A stretch of 64,000 nucleotides of DNA from an uncultured Pelagibacteraceae bacterium (lineage in GTDB: Bacteria > Pseudomonadota > Alphaproteobacteria > Pelagibacterales > Pelagibacteraceae), in assembly GCA_902560855.1 (NCBI GenBank), contig CACENJ010000001.1:110935-174934 (forward strand), written 5' to 3'. Of the stretch, positions 10,573 to 16,943 are shown piece after piece. Each line of letters opens with the position of its first letter. Position 1 is the first letter of the stretch. Made by a program: the position numbers and the translations under genes. The notes beneath the pieces were generated by a model that searched no databases, was not told where the DNA came from, and worked only from the letters and a program-made list of their open reading frames with translations.

Positions 10573-11619
10573 ATGAGAAACTTTTTTAAAATTTTAATTA
10601 TCAACTTTTCAGTTTTTATTTTTTTAATAGCAATAATAGAAATTTTTTTTGGTTATTGGTTTGATAAGTATAATTTTGGTTATCTGATGAGAGAACATAG
10701 ATTAAAAAATTCAACTTACAAAGTTAAACATTTTGAAAATGAATATGTAGTAAATTATAGGAGAAATTTTCATGGTTTTAGAGGTAAAGAATTAAATCCA
10801 AGTGACGTTAAATCTGTTTTTATTGGAGGCAGCACTGGAAATCAAAGATATACTCCAGAAGAATTTACTATTGTAGAACTTTTAAACAAAAGTTTTATAA
10901 AAAATAATATTAATTTAAAATTATATAATGCTTCAATGGATGGTAAATCTACATTTGGAATAATTAATGATTTTGAGCATTGGTTTACAAAATTAGAAAA
11001 ATTTTCTCCTAATTTATTTATTTTTTATATTGGACTTAATGATAAATTTTACAGGGGTAATTGCGATGAAAATAAAGGAACATTTGACGGAAGTGATTGT
11101 CACTATGATCCAAAATTGCTAGGCAAAATAAGAGATTATATAAAAAATAATAGTTTTTTTTCATTCAAGATAAAACAATTACAAAGTAAATATAATAAAA
11201 AAATAAAGCTTAGATATGGTTTATTTGGATATACAGAAAATTTGTATGAAGACTACGATTTTATAAATTATGAATCGGCTAAAAAAAAACACAAATCTAA
11301 AGAAAATAAAGAAGAAATTTTTGTAAAAAAAGAACTTGTTAAAAGATTGAACAGGATAATGAGTTATGTAGAAAGATATAATGCTAAAGCCATTTTTATT
11401 ACTCAGATAGAATTTAATGGCTTATCCAATAGAAATTTATTTTTAGCTAATGAAACAGTTAAAAAATTTTGCGAAGAAAACAACGTTGATTTAATAAGAC
11501 TCGATGAAGATTTAGAAATGTCAAAATTTGATTTTTATGACCCATGGCACACTACAGTTGAGGGTTCAAAAAAAATTTCAAGATATATTTTTGATGAGTT
11601 AATAAAATATATTAATTAG
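10573..11619 (+). CDS. SGNH/GDSL-like hydrolase family protein with N-terminal membrane anchor
   Basis: 348 aa; VFIGGST, YNASMDG, YIGLNDKF, DPWHTTVEGS blocks resembling SGNH blocks I/II/III/V; N-terminal TM segment. Confidence 0.65.
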   Translation: MRNFFKILIINFSVFIFLIAIIEIFFGYWFDKYNFGYLMREHRLKNSTYKVKHFENEYVVNYRRNFHGFRGKELNPSDVKSVFIGGSTGNQRYTPEEFTIVELLNKSFIKNNINLKLYNASMDGKSTFGIINDFEHWFTKLEKFSPNLFIFYIGLNDKFYRGNCDENKGTFDGSDCHYDPKLLGKIRDYIKNNSFFSFKIKQLQSKYNKKIKLRYGLFGYTENLYEDYDFINYESAKKKHKSKENKEEIFVKKELVKRLNRIMSYVERYNAKAIFITQIEFNGLSNRNLFLANETVKKFCEENNVDLIRLDEDLEMSKFDFYDPWHTTVEGSKKISRYIFDELIKYIN

Positions 11620-11628
11620 AAGATAAAA

Positions 11629-13062
11629 TTAGAATGATAGTGGATCGTATTTTGTAAAAATTATTTTTTTTGAAATACTTTTGTAATCATTTAAATTATT
11701 AATTTTTTTATAAATTTTTTTTGTAATATTTAAATTTTCAAGATGTAATCTTTTTTTATTTATCCTTTCAACAGGCGCATTAAAATTTGGATATGATGTA
11801 TATTCATAAATAAATTTGCTATCAAAGTTTACAATATGGACAGAATAAAGATTCATTGAGTTTATATGATCTTTTGAGCGTAAGTAGCCACCTAATATAG
11901 CAACAAACATTGTACAAAAAATAAGTAATGAAAATATAATTTTTTTATATAAATGTATTTCGTTTAGCATTAATTTAAATAAATTTTTTAAAAAAATAGT
12001 AATTATTGCTAAAACAAATATACTTGGTAAAAAAATTCCAAAAGATCTAAGGATAGCTATATGAGGAGCACAAAGTAATATTATTAAAAAAATAAAAATT
12101 AATATTTTATTAAAATTCAGCGGTGCTTTTTTATTGAAAACATAGTTTGTTATGCAAATGAGTATTAATAATATTAACCAAATTATTTGAAAGTAATATT
12201 GGCCTAAATTGAAATTTCTTATACTAAAAAAACCCATTGGAAACCAAGATGCTTTGAAAGCCTTGATTAAACCTCCAAATCCAATAATTTCATTTCCATA
12301 TTTTATGTAATCAAGAGTTATTTCAAAACCAGGTGCTTCAGGCACAAACTCTTTTCTTAAATACATATGAAAAATGACTAATAAAACTAATGGCAATGTT
12401 CCAAAAAAAATTCTTTTTACCTTATTTTCCATTTCAAATGTTATTAACAGTGAAGAAAGAAAAATAAATATAGGTAAGACGTACAGCTCTTCTCTTGTAA
12501 AAATAGATAGAATAGCAAACAAAAAACAAAAAATGTAATTTTGTATTTTTTTATTTTTGAGCCATGAAATAAAAAAAATAATTGAAAGTAAAGCATTTAT
12601 GTATGTAAATATAAGGGCACTTAAAGTTATCCATGATAATAATGTGCTATAGATTTTTGAAAAAGTTATTAATAATGTAAAAAATAATAATTCTAATTTA
12701 TTAAATCCTATTTGGTAAAGAAAAAAATTAACTAAAATAATCAAAGCAATCATCATAAGAAAAATAAAAAATCTTAAATAAAAAGTATTCTCACCAAAGA
12801 TTAATCCTAGAAAATTGTAATATAGTATTGCGACTGGTCTATAGCTTGGTGTTTCAATTTTATTTGGTATCCAATTACTAAACCAGCTATTATATATTTC
12901 TTCGATCGAATACACTTTAATTAAATGCAAATCATCCCAAACAAATGGTTGATATATTAAATTGTAACCACTTAACAAAAACCATGCTAAAAATGTTGCT
13001 ATTGTAACTAAAATTATGAATGAAACAGTACTTGAACTACTTATTTTTTTTTGATCAAACAT
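11629..13062 (-). CDS. Polytopic membrane protein, possible GT-C type glycosyltransferase
   Basis: 477 aa with many TM segments; periplasmic FVWDDLHLIK near N-terminus resembling GT-C acidic motif. Confidence 0.5.
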   Translation of the reverse strand: MFDQKKISSSSTVSFIILVTIATFLAWFLLSGYNLIYQPFVWDDLHLIKVYSIEEIYNSWFSNWIPNKIETPSYRPVAILYYNFLGLIFGENTFYLRFFIFLMMIALIILVNFFLYQIGFNKLELLFFTLLITFSKIYSTLLSWITLSALIFTYINALLSIIFFISWLKNKKIQNYIFCFLFAILSIFTREELYVLPIFIFLSSLLITFEMENKVKRIFFGTLPLVLLVIFHMYLRKEFVPEAPGFEITLDYIKYGNEIIGFGGLIKAFKASWFPMGFFSIRNFNLGQYYFQIIWLILLILICITNYVFNKKAPLNFNKILIFIFLIILLCAPHIAILRSFGIFLPSIFVLAIITIFLKNLFKLMLNEIHLYKKIIFSLLIFCTMFVAILGGYLRSKDHINSMNLYSVHIVNFDSKFIYEYTSYPNFNAPVERINKKRLHLENLNITKKIYKKINNLNDYKSISKKIIFTKYDPLSF

Positions 13063-13165
13063 AAATTTAAAAACAATGAATATATTAGAAATATAGATAA
13101 TATACCTTAAATAAACAAATTAATTAGTTTTAAAAATTAGAGATATATTTACATTACATAATAGA

Positions 13166-14530
13166 ATGAATTTTTTTATTTTAGATCCTTATACAAATAA
13201 CAATTGGAGATTAGTTAAAGATACAGCCGGAGGTTACGGAACCGGTAATGACTTTGGAGATAATTTTCTATCTAAAGGTTTAAATAAATTTGTTTCAAAA
13301 ATGATAAGTATGCCTCCTATGTATTCTATGTATGTATATTCAATATTAAAAATGAAAAATTGTAAAACAGAGTATTCAAAGGAATTTGAGGAAGAAAAAA
13401 TTAAAAATGCAGATTATGTTATTTTGACATCTTCTATTATTTGTCATGAAACTGAAATTGAAACATTAAAAAAACTTAACTCTATTGGAAAAAAAGTTTT
13501 CGTCATTGGAATATTTGGAAATGTAATGAAGGAAAGGTACAAGTTAAAAAATACTCATGTAGTAAAAGGTGAACCCGAAAGTTTTTTTTTAAATTTAAAC
13601 ACAACAGAAAAAAAATTTGTAGATATATTCTTTACCGATGATAAATCAGAAATATCAAATTCTCTAGTTGTAGAAAATTTAGACTCCTTACCATTCCCAG
13701 ATTGGAAATATTACAGTAGTAAATACGATCTAAAAAATAATTTTTTAGCTTTTAACTCTAAAATTGCTATTCCAATAGTAGCAACAAGAGGATGTCCGTA
13801 TTCATGTTTTAATTATTGCACTTATCCGCTACAACAAGGACGTAAAGTTAGATTCAGATCAGTAAAAAATGTAATTGAAGAAATTAAGTACTGGATTAAA
13901 AATTTAAACACTAATAAATTTATTTTCAGAGATCCAGTCTTTTCTATAAATAGAAAGTATACAGAAGAATTGTGCAAAGAAATTATTAATGAAAATTTAA
14001 AAATAAATTTTCTTATCGAAACGCATTTAAAAAACTTGGATGATGAATTAATTGATTTATTAAAAAACGCAGGCCTTGAAATGGTTTATGTTGGTATTGA
14101 ATCGTCCAATTCAGAAGTTTTAGGAGATATAAAAAGATTTACAATAAATAATGATGAACAGTACAAAATAATAAAAAAATTAGTTGATAAAAATATTTAT
14201 GTTAAATCAATGTTTATGTTCGGAAATCCAGGTGATGACGAAAATACAATAAAAAAATCGATCGAATATTCTGCTTTTTTGCCAAATCAATTTGTTCAAT
14301 ACAGTGTTTTTACACCATACCCAGGCACACCTGTTTATAATCTTTTTGAAAAAAAAATAATTGAGCAAAAATATGAAAAATTTAATCAATACAATCTTAT
14401 ATATAAACATGAAAATCTAAATAATTCTAAAATAACTAAATTAAAAAACTACGCATATAGAAAATTTTATTTTAGAGTTAGCAAATTTCCAATAATAGCT
14501 AAATCTATTTTAAGCTTAGTAATACGTTAA
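13166..14530 (+). CDS. Radical SAM protein (B12-binding-domain family architecture) with unusual cysteine spacing
   Basis: 454 aa; VATRGCPYSCFNYCTYPLQQGRKVRFRS; YVGIESSNSEVL; FMFGNPGDDENT. Confidence 0.82.
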   Translation: MNFFILDPYTNNNWRLVKDTAGGYGTGNDFGDNFLSKGLNKFVSKMISMPPMYSMYVYSILKMKNCKTEYSKEFEEEKIKNADYVILTSSIICHETEIETLKKLNSIGKKVFVIGIFGNVMKERYKLKNTHVVKGEPESFFLNLNTTEKKFVDIFFTDDKSEISNSLVVENLDSLPFPDWKYYSSKYDLKNNFLAFNSKIAIPIVATRGCPYSCFNYCTYPLQQGRKVRFRSVKNVIEEIKYWIKNLNTNKFIFRDPVFSINRKYTEELCKEIINENLKINFLIETHLKNLDDELIDLLKNAGLEMVYVGIESSNSEVLGDIKRFTINNDEQYKIIKKLVDKNIYVKSMFMFGNPGDDENTIKKSIEYSAFLPNQFVQYSVFTPYPGTPVYNLFEKKIIEQKYEKFNQYNLIYKHENLNNSKITKLKNYAYRKFYFRVSKFPIIAKSILSLVIR

Positions 14531-14539
14531 CAATTATAG

Positions 14540-15355
14540 ATGAAAGAAAAAAATATTATAGTTACTGGTGGAACAGGAGGCATAGGTTTAGCCTTAGTTA
14601 AAAAACTAATTAATAAAAATAATAGAATTTTTATTATTGGTAAAAATGAAGACAAAGGTAATAAAGTTGTTTCAGATCTCTTTTCTTATAAAATAGAATT
14701 TTTTAAATGCGATTTATCTGAAAAGGAAGAAATAAAAAAGTTTATCAAGAACATTTCACATTTAAATAAAATTGATTTATTGGTTAACAATGCCGGAGCT
14801 CTTTTTTTAAATAGAGAAACAAATAGCGATAATGTAGAAAAAACATTTTCATTAAATCACTTATCATATTTTCATATGTCATTATCTTTGATTGATAAAT
14901 TAAAAAATTCTTATGAACCAAAAATAATGAATATTTCTTCAAACGCACATAAATTTTATTCTTTAGATTTGAACGATCTAGAAAATGCATTAAATTATAA
15001 TTCGTGGAAAGCCTATTGTAGATCGAAATTATTAAATATTTATTTTACTTACGAATTTAATAGAAAAATTAACAATAATGTTATTTGCAATTGTATACAC
15101 CCAGGTTTTGTTGATTCAGATTTTGGTAATGTTAAAAAATCTTTTTATCGTCAAGGAGCCAAAATGATAAAAAAAATTTTTGGTATTTCCACTGAAAGAG
15201 CAGCAATCCCTATATATAATTTATGTAATGATGATACATTAAAAAAATCAGGACAGTATTTTTTCAAGGGCATTGTTAAAAAAAGTTCTAATATTTCTTA
15301 TGATAAAAAAATAGCTGATTTTGTATGGAAAGAGTCATTAAAATATATAGTTTAA
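14540..15355 (+). CDS. Short-chain dehydrogenase/reductase (retinol dehydrogenase/WWOX-like)
   Basis: 271 aa; TGGTGGIG, NNAG, YCRSK (YxxxK), HPGFV. Confidence 0.88.
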   Translation: MKEKNIIVTGGTGGIGLALVKKLINKNNRIFIIGKNEDKGNKVVSDLFSYKIEFFKCDLSEKEEIKKFIKNISHLNKIDLLVNNAGALFLNRETNSDNVEKTFSLNHLSYFHMSLSLIDKLKNSYEPKIMNISSNAHKFYSLDLNDLENALNYNSWKAYCRSKLLNIYFTYEFNRKINNNVICNCIHPGFVDSDFGNVKKSFYRQGAKMIKKIFGISTERAAIPIYNLCNDDTLKKSGQYFFKGIVKKSSNISYDKKIADFVWKESLKYIV

Positions 15356-15410
15356 TATTTTTTTATTGTAAAAAAATAGAGTTAACATAAACATTATGAA
15401 AATAACTAAT

Positions 15411-15457
15411 GCCCTCGTGGTGAAATTGGTAGACACAAAGGACTTAAAAGCCGAGGG
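15411..15457 (+). pseudogene. Truncated tRNA-Leu copy (5' half to end of anticodon loop, then GCCGAGGG)
   Basis: First 39 nt identical to the intact tRNA-Leu at 16850-16888; anticodon 3' strand, variable arm and T arm missing. Confidence 0.88.
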
Positions 15458-15575
15458 ATTCACAAGTGAGTCAGTCCGTGGTAGTCCAGAGCAGTCTAAA
15501 CATCCTATAAAATCTCTTAAATTTAAATTAGCTTTCTATTATGATTAGAAAATAAGGCTTAATTAATTTGTTCAA

Positions 15576-15606
15576 ACTGGAGCAAGACTGGAGCATAGGG
15601 AGATAA
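15576..15606 (+). repeat. 31-bp direct repeat copy 1, containing two ACTGGAGCA sub-repeats
   Basis: ACTGGAGCAAGACTGGAGCATAGGGAGATAA; 28/31 identical to copy at 16747. Confidence 0.92.
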
Positions 15607-15623
15607 TATAATAAGCTTTAATT

Positions 15624-16718
15624 ATGAAAAAACTTTTAGGGATCGTGGTTCTGGGTTTGTTGTGGTGTAATGTTGGATTTGCTTTGTCGCAATCAACAGC
15701 GATAGATCAATATTTGTCAGGAAAGAAACTAGATACAATCGAAGGCATCTGGTTAACTCACAGGGGTAATTTACTTGTATTTTATAAATCAGGATCAAGC
15801 TATGTTGGCAAAACTCTTGAGCAACACGAGTTTCTTAATCCAGGAACAGTAGCTGTCACATTAACGAAAAGTTCAAATAGTTTATATATGGGTCCTCAAA
15901 TTTGGCCCATGGTTAATAACTCAAACAGAGTTGTTAGCACACAAAGATTTAAAATGATTTATAATGTTTATGGAAATAGCATAACATTAAGATTTGGAGA
16001 TGGTAGCGGAGGAACAAGAACTTTTAGAAGAGTATGGCCAGAAAATTTGAATGCACATAACTCTCAATTCGAAAAGAAAAAAGTTGCTGAGAAAGATAAA
16101 GATAAAAATAAAATACAAGCATCATCAGGTACAGCTTTTTTTGTAACCAATAAGGGTCACACAATTACTAATTATCATGTTGTAGAAGGTTGCAAAGGTA
16201 AATCTAAGATCATTTACCAAGACAATGAATATAAAGCTAAACTAATTGCTAAAGACAAATATCTTGATTTAGCTTTACTAAAATCTGAGCTTAATAATGA
16301 ACATTATATCGCACTATCAAATAAATCTCCAAAAAAACTTCAAAGAATAATTGCTGCAGGTTATCCTTTAGGTAAAGAATTAAGTGATGATTTAAAATTT
16401 ACATCCGGGATAGTAAGTTCATTAAAAGGTCTTGAAGATGATTCAACACGTATACAAATTGATGCAGCTTTAAATTATGGGAACAGTGGAGGACCAATAG
16501 TTGATGAAAAAACAGGAGAACTTGTTGCAGTTGCTGTTGCAGGGTTAGATAAACAAGTAACCGAGAGCATTAACTTTGGTATAAAAGCTGGATCAGTTAA
16601 AAACTTTTTAGACTCTAATCAGATAAACGTGAATTTAAATGCTAAAAAATTTAGTTTAGGAGATATTGATCTTGCTTCAATTTTAGAAAACGCAACTGTT
16701 TACACTTTTTGTAAATAA
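15624..16718 (+). CDS. Secreted trypsin-like (HtrA/DegP-type S1C) serine protease
   Basis: 364 aa; signal peptide MKKLLGIVVLGLLWCNVGFA; triad context NYHVVEGC (H), YLDLALL (D), GNSGGPIV (S); no PDZ domain recognisable. Confidence 0.85.
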   Translation: MKKLLGIVVLGLLWCNVGFALSQSTAIDQYLSGKKLDTIEGIWLTHRGNLLVFYKSGSSYVGKTLEQHEFLNPGTVAVTLTKSSNSLYMGPQIWPMVNNSNRVVSTQRFKMIYNVYGNSITLRFGDGSGGTRTFRRVWPENLNAHNSQFEKKKVAEKDKDKNKIQASSGTAFFVTNKGHTITNYHVVEGCKGKSKIIYQDNEYKAKLIAKDKYLDLALLKSELNNEHYIALSNKSPKKLQRIIAAGYPLGKELSDDLKFTSGIVSSLKGLEDDSTRIQIDAALNYGNSGGPIVDEKTGELVAVAVAGLDKQVTESINFGIKAGSVKNFLDSNQINVNLNAKKFSLGDIDLASILENATVYTFCK

Positions 16719-16746
16719 TAGAAAGTTTATAGGATAATATAGGACA

Positions 16747-16777
16747 ACTGGAGCACAACTGGAGCATGGGGAGATAA
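16747..16777 (+). repeat. 31-bp direct repeat copy 2
   Basis: ACTGGAGCACAACTGGAGCATGGGGAGATAA; same orientation as copy 1. Confidence 0.92.
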
Positions 16778-16849
16778 ATTAAAAAAATTTTACTTATTAA
16801 CCTTGTTCAATTATAAATATTAGCATAAATACTCATGAAATTCACAAAT

Positions 16850-16935
16850 GCCCTCGTGGTGAAATTGGTAGACACAAAGGACTTAAAATCCTTGCCCTTT
16901 TGGGAGTGCCAGTTCGAGTCTGGCCGAGGGCACCA
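16850..16935 (+). tRNA. tRNA-Leu (TAA), CCA encoded
   Basis: GCCCTCG...CGAGGGCACCA acceptor; AAGGA-CTTAAAA-TCCTT anticodon arm; long variable arm; T arm GCCAG-TTCGAGT-CTGGC. Confidence 0.96.
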
Positions 16936-16943
16936 CAAAAAAT

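Follow-up and report, generated by a model that had tools for sequence, protein, structure and literature searches.

We propose that the tRNA-Leu(TAA) gene of SAR11 bacteria hosts a family of small integrase-less elements, which are probably moved in trans by the integrases of satellite elements, with short iterons acting as the address of the helper. The unit in the window (the whole 64,000-nt stretch of DNA analysed) is a representative of this family, and its features are collected in Table 1. It spans 1,439 bp (15450-16888), from the end of the broken tRNA copy to the end of the restored half, and the only intact tRNA-Leu(TAA) reported by ARAGORN is the proximal one, the upstream copy being a half only. 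The half-tRNA and its upstream sequence form a 57-nt direct repeat with 93% identity, in agreement with a first-pass annotation of this DNA, which had pointed out both the exact recurrence of the first 39 nt of the tRNA and a similarity of about 25 bp upstream of each copy. The stretch at 15386-15410 is probably a remnant of an earlier tRNA upstream region. The same annotation had described 31-bp direct repeats with two units each; both repeats are present, built as ACTGGAGCA-N2-ACTGGAGCA-N2-GGGAGATAA over 31 bp, but they agree at 28 of 31 positions and are therefore near-exact rather than exact. The single secreted serine protease gene proposed as cargo was confirmed, since the product matches Trypsin_2 (PF13365, E 5.3e-25) and has the H, D and GNSGGP motifs. 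Also as proposed, the ORFs between the two tRNA copies include no integrase; phage genes were not found inside the unit, where no structural or packaging gene remains. The cargo is bounded by attL-like and attR-like sites without a recombinase, as expected for an integrase-less element mobilised in trans. The conserved right end, cttgttcaattataaatattagcataaa, which is missing 5' of the tRNA in the unit-free genome G012, would supply the promoter for the restored tRNA.

Table 1. Features of the integrase-less unit at tRNA-Leu(TAA), in window coordinates.
Feature	Position	Strand	Remarks
Sequence 5' of the distal half-tRNA	15386..15410	+	Resembles the sequence preceding the intact tRNA; within the 57-nt direct repeat (93%)
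Distal attachment core, 39-nt 5' half of tRNA-Leu(TAA) through the anticodon loop	15411..15449	+	Exact copy of 16850-16888
Core-proximal arm, type A, three AGTC-containing repeats	15450..15500	+	Compared with integrase-bearing elements
Left iteron site	15576..15606	+	ACTGGAGCAAGACTGGAGCATAGGGAGATAA; two ACTGGAGCA units at 11-bp period, then GGGAGATAA; putative arm-type integrase sites
Cargo ORF, 364 aa, secreted trypsin-like serine protease	15624..16718	+	PF13365
Right iteron site	16747..16777	+	ACTGGAGCACAACTGGAGCATGGGGAGATAA; again two ACTGGAGCA units followed by GGGAGATAA; -103/-92 relative to the tRNA core
Conserved right end of cargo-only elements	16801..16849	+	cttgttcaattataaatattagcataaa...; conserved ahead of the tRNA copies of these elements
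Intact tRNA-Leu(TAA), restored at the proximal junction	16850..16935	+	ARAGORN

Two further observations concern the surroundings of the unit. The sequence just after the broken half (15450-15465, GCCGAGGGATTCACAA) resembles the 3' end of the tRNA (16923-16938, GCCGAGGGCACCACAA) at 81%, as if the arm had arisen from a tRNA with its middle deleted. In addition, four genes, including those for radical-SAM-like and SDR proteins, lie between serA and the broken tRNA (10573-15355) and may be older content of a flexible island.

The first-pass annotation had remarked that a mobilised unit with one protease gene as cargo would be unusual; the arrangement is not peculiar to this locus. In the sample of 399 genomes of the genus, in which most relatives are partial genomes, 270 have the exact 39-nt core, and about 92 of the 399 (counted from a table) carry at least two copies on the same strand. 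Further half-tRNA copies 5' of the intact gene came to light when relatives were searched at the DNA level, and 60 candidate units, two of which are the integrase-bearing elements of G144 and G191, were parsed from the fetched regions. Nearly all are 1-6 kb long (range 1.0-11 kb), the largest giving no integrase match, and their cargo varies. The usual order is core, AGTC-repeat arm, left iterons, cargo, right iterons, conserved right end and the next tRNA copy, with three types of core-proximal arm (A, B and C). Elements in which no left arm could be recognised (e.g. L101, L112 and L120) were left out of the interpretation; L112 and L120 are units of about 1,067 bp at the same tRNA in which another repeat, TTCTAGTGTAGTT, stands close to each end and no arm is recognisable, and they are possibly another element type. 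Empty sites were observed as well, with tRNA genes lacking an upstream half copy in genomes including the complete genome G012. The iteron site of the window (one mismatch at most) was found in only five of the 399 genomes, twice each in the window genome (G000), G168 and G147, where it adjoins this tRNA core, and once each in G237 and G179. Because the site is so rare, its pairing in the window is not a matter of chance.

The cargo within the units is turned over. The ACTGGAGCA address encloses three different cargoes, namely the protease in the window, a multi-gene cargo in G168 and a pair of 159-aa and 94-aa proteins in G147, so that other cargo does occur between the same repeats, as the first-pass annotation had suggested might be seen in relatives. 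The window protease is of HtrA type, gave no match to a PDZ domain and also matches the protease region of PADLOC RT-Protease_XI (E 1e-23). Among the 25 commonest Pfam families of 95 cargo proteins are trypsin-like proteases (5), N6 methylases (4), prepilin signals (4) and type I specificity subunits (3), together with MmeI-type methylases, autotransporters and caspase-like domains, and PADLOC detected type I, II and IIG restriction-modification proteins. One 2,852-bp cargo element is present in G031, G104 and G391 at different positions of the array and is 89-91% identical among them, compared with 75-85% for the flanks; a further cargo gene reaches 99.5% identity between genomes whose flanks agree at 75%. 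Identity of the cargo above that of its flanks shows horizontal spread, judged from these alignments, and does not tell the mechanism. Other features of the cargo were also observed. The DNA of the signal-peptide start (ATGAAAAAACTTTTAGGGATCGTGGTTCTGGG; window 15624-15663 and 1549-1590 of the G147 locus L158) recurs in related genomes at many places, with about 88-100% identity, and the similarity between the elements of the window and G147 runs from the left iterons into the signal peptide, after which the encoded proteins differ, as if cargo had been swapped behind a fixed leader. Runs of prepilin-like genes (xxRKAFTLIELLVVVAIIGILAAVGVVAYNGYT) are the cargo of some units and flank others (L026, L106, L107 and L127).

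Integrase-bearing elements occupy the identical tRNA-Leu site, integrated in G144 (8.8 kb), G191 (7.8 kb) and G634 (8.8 kb), and G225 has a 10.2-kb element with an integrase of a second lineage. The G144 element encodes an integrase, a DNA primase and a RusA-like resolvase. The 39-nt core was also detected in 23 IMG/VR stretches, among which terminal overlaps show L041, L056 and L060 (about 7.7-8.9 kb) to be circular, although circularity does not prove virion packaging; in these contigs iterons, core, arm and integrase are contiguous, the integrase is a 545-549-aa tyrosine integrase and a primase/helicase gene lies further along. Thus, a compatible recombinase is carried by elements sharing the attachment site in G144, G191, G634 and the circular contigs, with addresses other than the exact ACTGGAGCA. 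A profile of the integrase gave a long match in only five of the 399 genomes, one of them (G182) broken by stops, and weak or fragmentary matches in four more, against the roughly 92 with two or more cores. PF00589 was searched in 16 genomes, of which 15 contain a Xer-type recombinase (about 310-325 aa) and one, G027, gave no match; a second match above threshold occurs only in G144 and G191, and since PF00589 misses the G225 integrase, the integrase count is a lower bound. In the window genome, the sole tyrosine recombinase found is a 323-aa Xer-type protein on a different contig; this genome is 75% complete, and a helper may therefore have been missed. G408 and G321 (99% complete), each assembled as one contig, contain cargo-only elements and a single Xer-type recombinase, with no satellite-type integrase. 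Scans of viral and genome collections with the integrases gave few further members, and the satellite integrase had no match among 50,697 phage records. The second lineage of satellite integrases (L139 189-10392; L057 and L059) is associated with GGTTCCACA or AGTTGCCCA/AGTTACCCA iterons at the same tRNA, and the integrases of L057 and L059 share 97% identity in the catalytic part and 50% in the arm domain.

The site geometry is common to both element classes. In each class the right iterons stand at -104/-93 or -103/-92 relative to the core, the latter being the offset in the window and in G144, G191, L041 and L060. The left iterons of the integrase-bearing elements lie at +166/+178 from the core start, within the integrase ORF, and are followed by another copy at +203/204; those of the cargo-only elements lie at about +165/+176, so that the offsets of the two classes agree to 1-2 bp. 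A GAGATA-like motif follows the iterons in both. The first 37 nt past the core are identical between the window arm and that of the integrase-bearing element L145 (AG-909-L14), and over 50 nt the window arm matches L145 at 44 positions and G144 at 41. The proposal of a site-specific integrative unit with arm-type sites at tRNA-Leu is supported by this anatomy and shared geometry. Within an element, moreover, the left and right iterons match at 14.65 of 16 positions, as compared with 10.54 of 16 between elements; the mean within elements was reached in none of 100,000 permutations (permutation maximum 11.89). Divided by arm type, the permutations reaching the observed match numbered 0 for A, 140 for B and 6,745 for C of 100,000, so that the matching is weaker for B and C; no integrase-bearing element shares the arm of either of these two types. 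Among the cargo-only elements, 25 addresses were read, of which a few may be mis-registered. Four of the six integrase-bearing addresses (CCAGCACA, CCAGTACC, CTAGAAAC and CTAGGATC) are identical to cargo-only addresses elsewhere (p = 0.0013 under a column-wise null, which takes no account of shared ancestry). CCAGCACA is the address of the G144 (AG-414-K15) integrase, and CTGGAGCA is another iteron sequence of these elements. The idea that the repeat site of the window would stand beside integrases holds for the class of site, which flanks integrase-bearing elements, and not for the exact address, as no integrase with ACTGGAGCA iterons was found in the 399 genomes or, by iteron pattern, in viral contigs. 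Twenty matches to ACTGGAGCA pairs in viral contigs were rejected as unrelated; the contigs have 48-67% GC, many have more ACTGGAGCA copies nearby and none has a tRNA core within the 260-nt contexts. The dense ACTGGAGCA repeats of the GC-rich viral contigs L067-L086 are unconnected with the tRNA-Leu site.

The N-terminal domain of the integrase is a candidate reader of the iterons. An AlphaFold model of the G144 integrase has a mean pLDDT of 78.5 and a pTM of only 0.43, with pLDDT 80-90 in the domains, and in Foldseek its N-terminal strands and helix matched the arm-binding domains 3jtz, 3ju0 and 3rmp at target-normalised TM scores of 0.64-0.77. The model also matches the Tn1549, Xer and lambda integrases, and the sequence matches the phrog_1 integrase (E 2e-21); a profile search against PDB sequences gave no match, whereas the fold comparison did. 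The modelled fold thus assigns the helper integrase to the P4-like arm-binding type, with predicted N-terminal arm-binding and tyrosine recombinase domains. Five pairs of integrases with 94-97% identity in the catalytic part were compared: residues 55-126 are 96% identical where the iterons are the same and only 50-75% identical where the iterons differ at one or two positions. Beyond residue 160, the integrases of AG-414-K15 and AG-909-L14 are 90-100% identical in each block of 40 residues, the N-terminal domain covering roughly residues 1-150. This divergence bears on a variant of our explanation, in which the iterons are needed but unselective, any satellite integrase of the family acts on any element, and a recent common origin keeps the two ends alike while the iterons drift. 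The one-base differences between some addresses, the loose iteron consensus and the small number of close integrase pairs are compatible with this variant, but the arm domain diverges where the iterons differ, between integrases whose catalytic parts are 94-97% identical, and we regard unselective iterons as rather unlikely, if the strongest of the competing accounts.

Herein, we favor trans mobilisation by satellite integrases. Mobilisation in trans was among the readings offered by the first-pass annotation and is the most likely of them; the interpretation given there is partly supported overall. The window unit would be a non-autonomous integrative element, with a cargo gene between attachment-site arms and no integrase. 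Site-specific recombination in the anticodon loop would insert the element on the 5' side of the tRNA gene. As the anatomy suggests, the incoming element would bring its own tRNA 5' half and upstream region, and the old 5' half would be left as the broken copy; because the repeated part is the 5' half, the upstream region of the tRNA, which differs in unit-free G012, would be replaced. The recombinase would be supplied in trans by satellite or plasmid-like elements with an integrase, an AEP primase and a RusA-like resolvase, which use the same site and have circular forms in viral catalogues; the sequence data contained no cargo-only element in circular form. The iterons may be arm-type sites bound by the P4-like N-terminal domain, and an element-specific iteron sequence might tie each cargo element to the integrases with a matching domain. 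As a counterpoint, the cassettes could also be spread by homologous recombination. A bolder extension, which we put forward tentatively, is a compartmentalised cassette economy in SAR11, in which satellite arm domains diversify together with 8-9-bp iterons into mutually exclusive addresses, a separate, long-lived lineage of integrase-less cargo elements evolves to match them, and delivery of a given cargo depends on a helper that has its code.

Three other explanations were weighed. The units might be remnants of satellites or prophages after deletion of the mobility genes, immobile and spread by vertical descent and homologous recombination. Degenerate half copies with 3-4 mismatches (L021, L028 and L032) and the lack of an integrase in many genomes are in line with such decay. 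However, dozens of units keep exact cores, the common geometry and iterons matched at both ends, the cargo protease remains an open reading frame with its catalytic motifs, and the same cargo element stands at different array positions between genomes. Moreover, the right end is common to the cargo-only elements and unlike that of the integrase-bearing elements, and the units are therefore not independent deletions. The decayed prophage or island also considered in the first-pass annotation is thus improbable. Temperate pelagiphages, rather than satellites, might supply the integrase, as HTVC105P and the uncultured phage S35-C6 have the same 39-nt core beside an integrase; their attachment regions, however, have neither the AGTC arm nor the iteron pairs of 11-bp period, both of which are present in the satellite elements, and this source is very unlikely. 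In these two phages (L064 and L065), the core lies directly after the integrase gene and the arms are different; since the core is the same, phages, satellites and cargo elements would compete for one site. Least credible is that the host Xer recombinase does the work, as for IMEX elements: each genome with a match has a Xer-type recombinase (about 310-325 aa), but the target is a tRNA anticodon loop, satellites of the same site geometry encode their own integrase and, to our knowledge, arm-type iterons are not a feature of Xer sites.

Several known systems resemble parts of this one. CIMEs are hitcher elements without a recombinase of their own. CALINs and MITEs are likewise cargo or short DNA bounded by recombination sites and served by a helper enzyme in trans (PMC11389934). 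The present elements differ from all three in their tRNA tyrosine-integrase sites, which take the place of integron attC sites or transposon ends, and in their paired element-specific iterons and tandem stacking at one tRNA. The 13-kb microcin H47 island of E. coli is also small and repeat-flanked and lacks recombinase genes, its excision and integration having been shown to use functions elsewhere in the genome; it is a single island, and the abstract mentions no iteron address system (PMC3191183). VEIMEs and tycheposons are tRNA-targeted marine integrative elements with cargo, like the integrase-bearing relatives here (PMC10803314, PMC10872708), and tycheposons are 4-200 kb long and carry a tyrosine recombinase (PMC10872708). 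The window element and most of its relatives lack a recombinase; the window element therefore falls outside these groups, for which the integrase-bearing relatives are better candidates. The additive flexible genomic islands of Methylophilaceae also consist of tandem cassettes separated by recurring tRNA pieces, but there the tRNA-Lys 3' end recurs, whereas here it is the tRNA-Leu 5' half, the arm sites are matched and integrase-bearing partners were identified (PMC10872708). P4-like integrases (3jtz, 3ju0 and 3rmp) have the same N-terminal fold and direct-repeat arm sites; unlike in these, the arm domain here keeps pace with the iterons and diverges far more rapidly than the catalytic part. 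Islands without recombinases and tandem cassettes at tRNA genes were thus already known (PMC10872708, PMC3191183, PMC11389934), and no description of an integrase-less cassette family with paired iterons matching particular integrase-bearing elements was found in the open-licence papers searched.

A tRNA-Leu site that stacks and exchanges single genes and small operons, including proteases, restriction-modification enzymes, pilins and autotransporters, without a resident integrase may be a route for accessory gene turnover in SAR11. These bacteria are among the most abundant in the ocean and have streamlined genomes. If the iterons are indeed addresses read by a fast-evolving integrase domain, these elements would provide natural pairs of integrases and arm sites for direct tests of specificity, and sequence alone would predict which helper moves which cargo.
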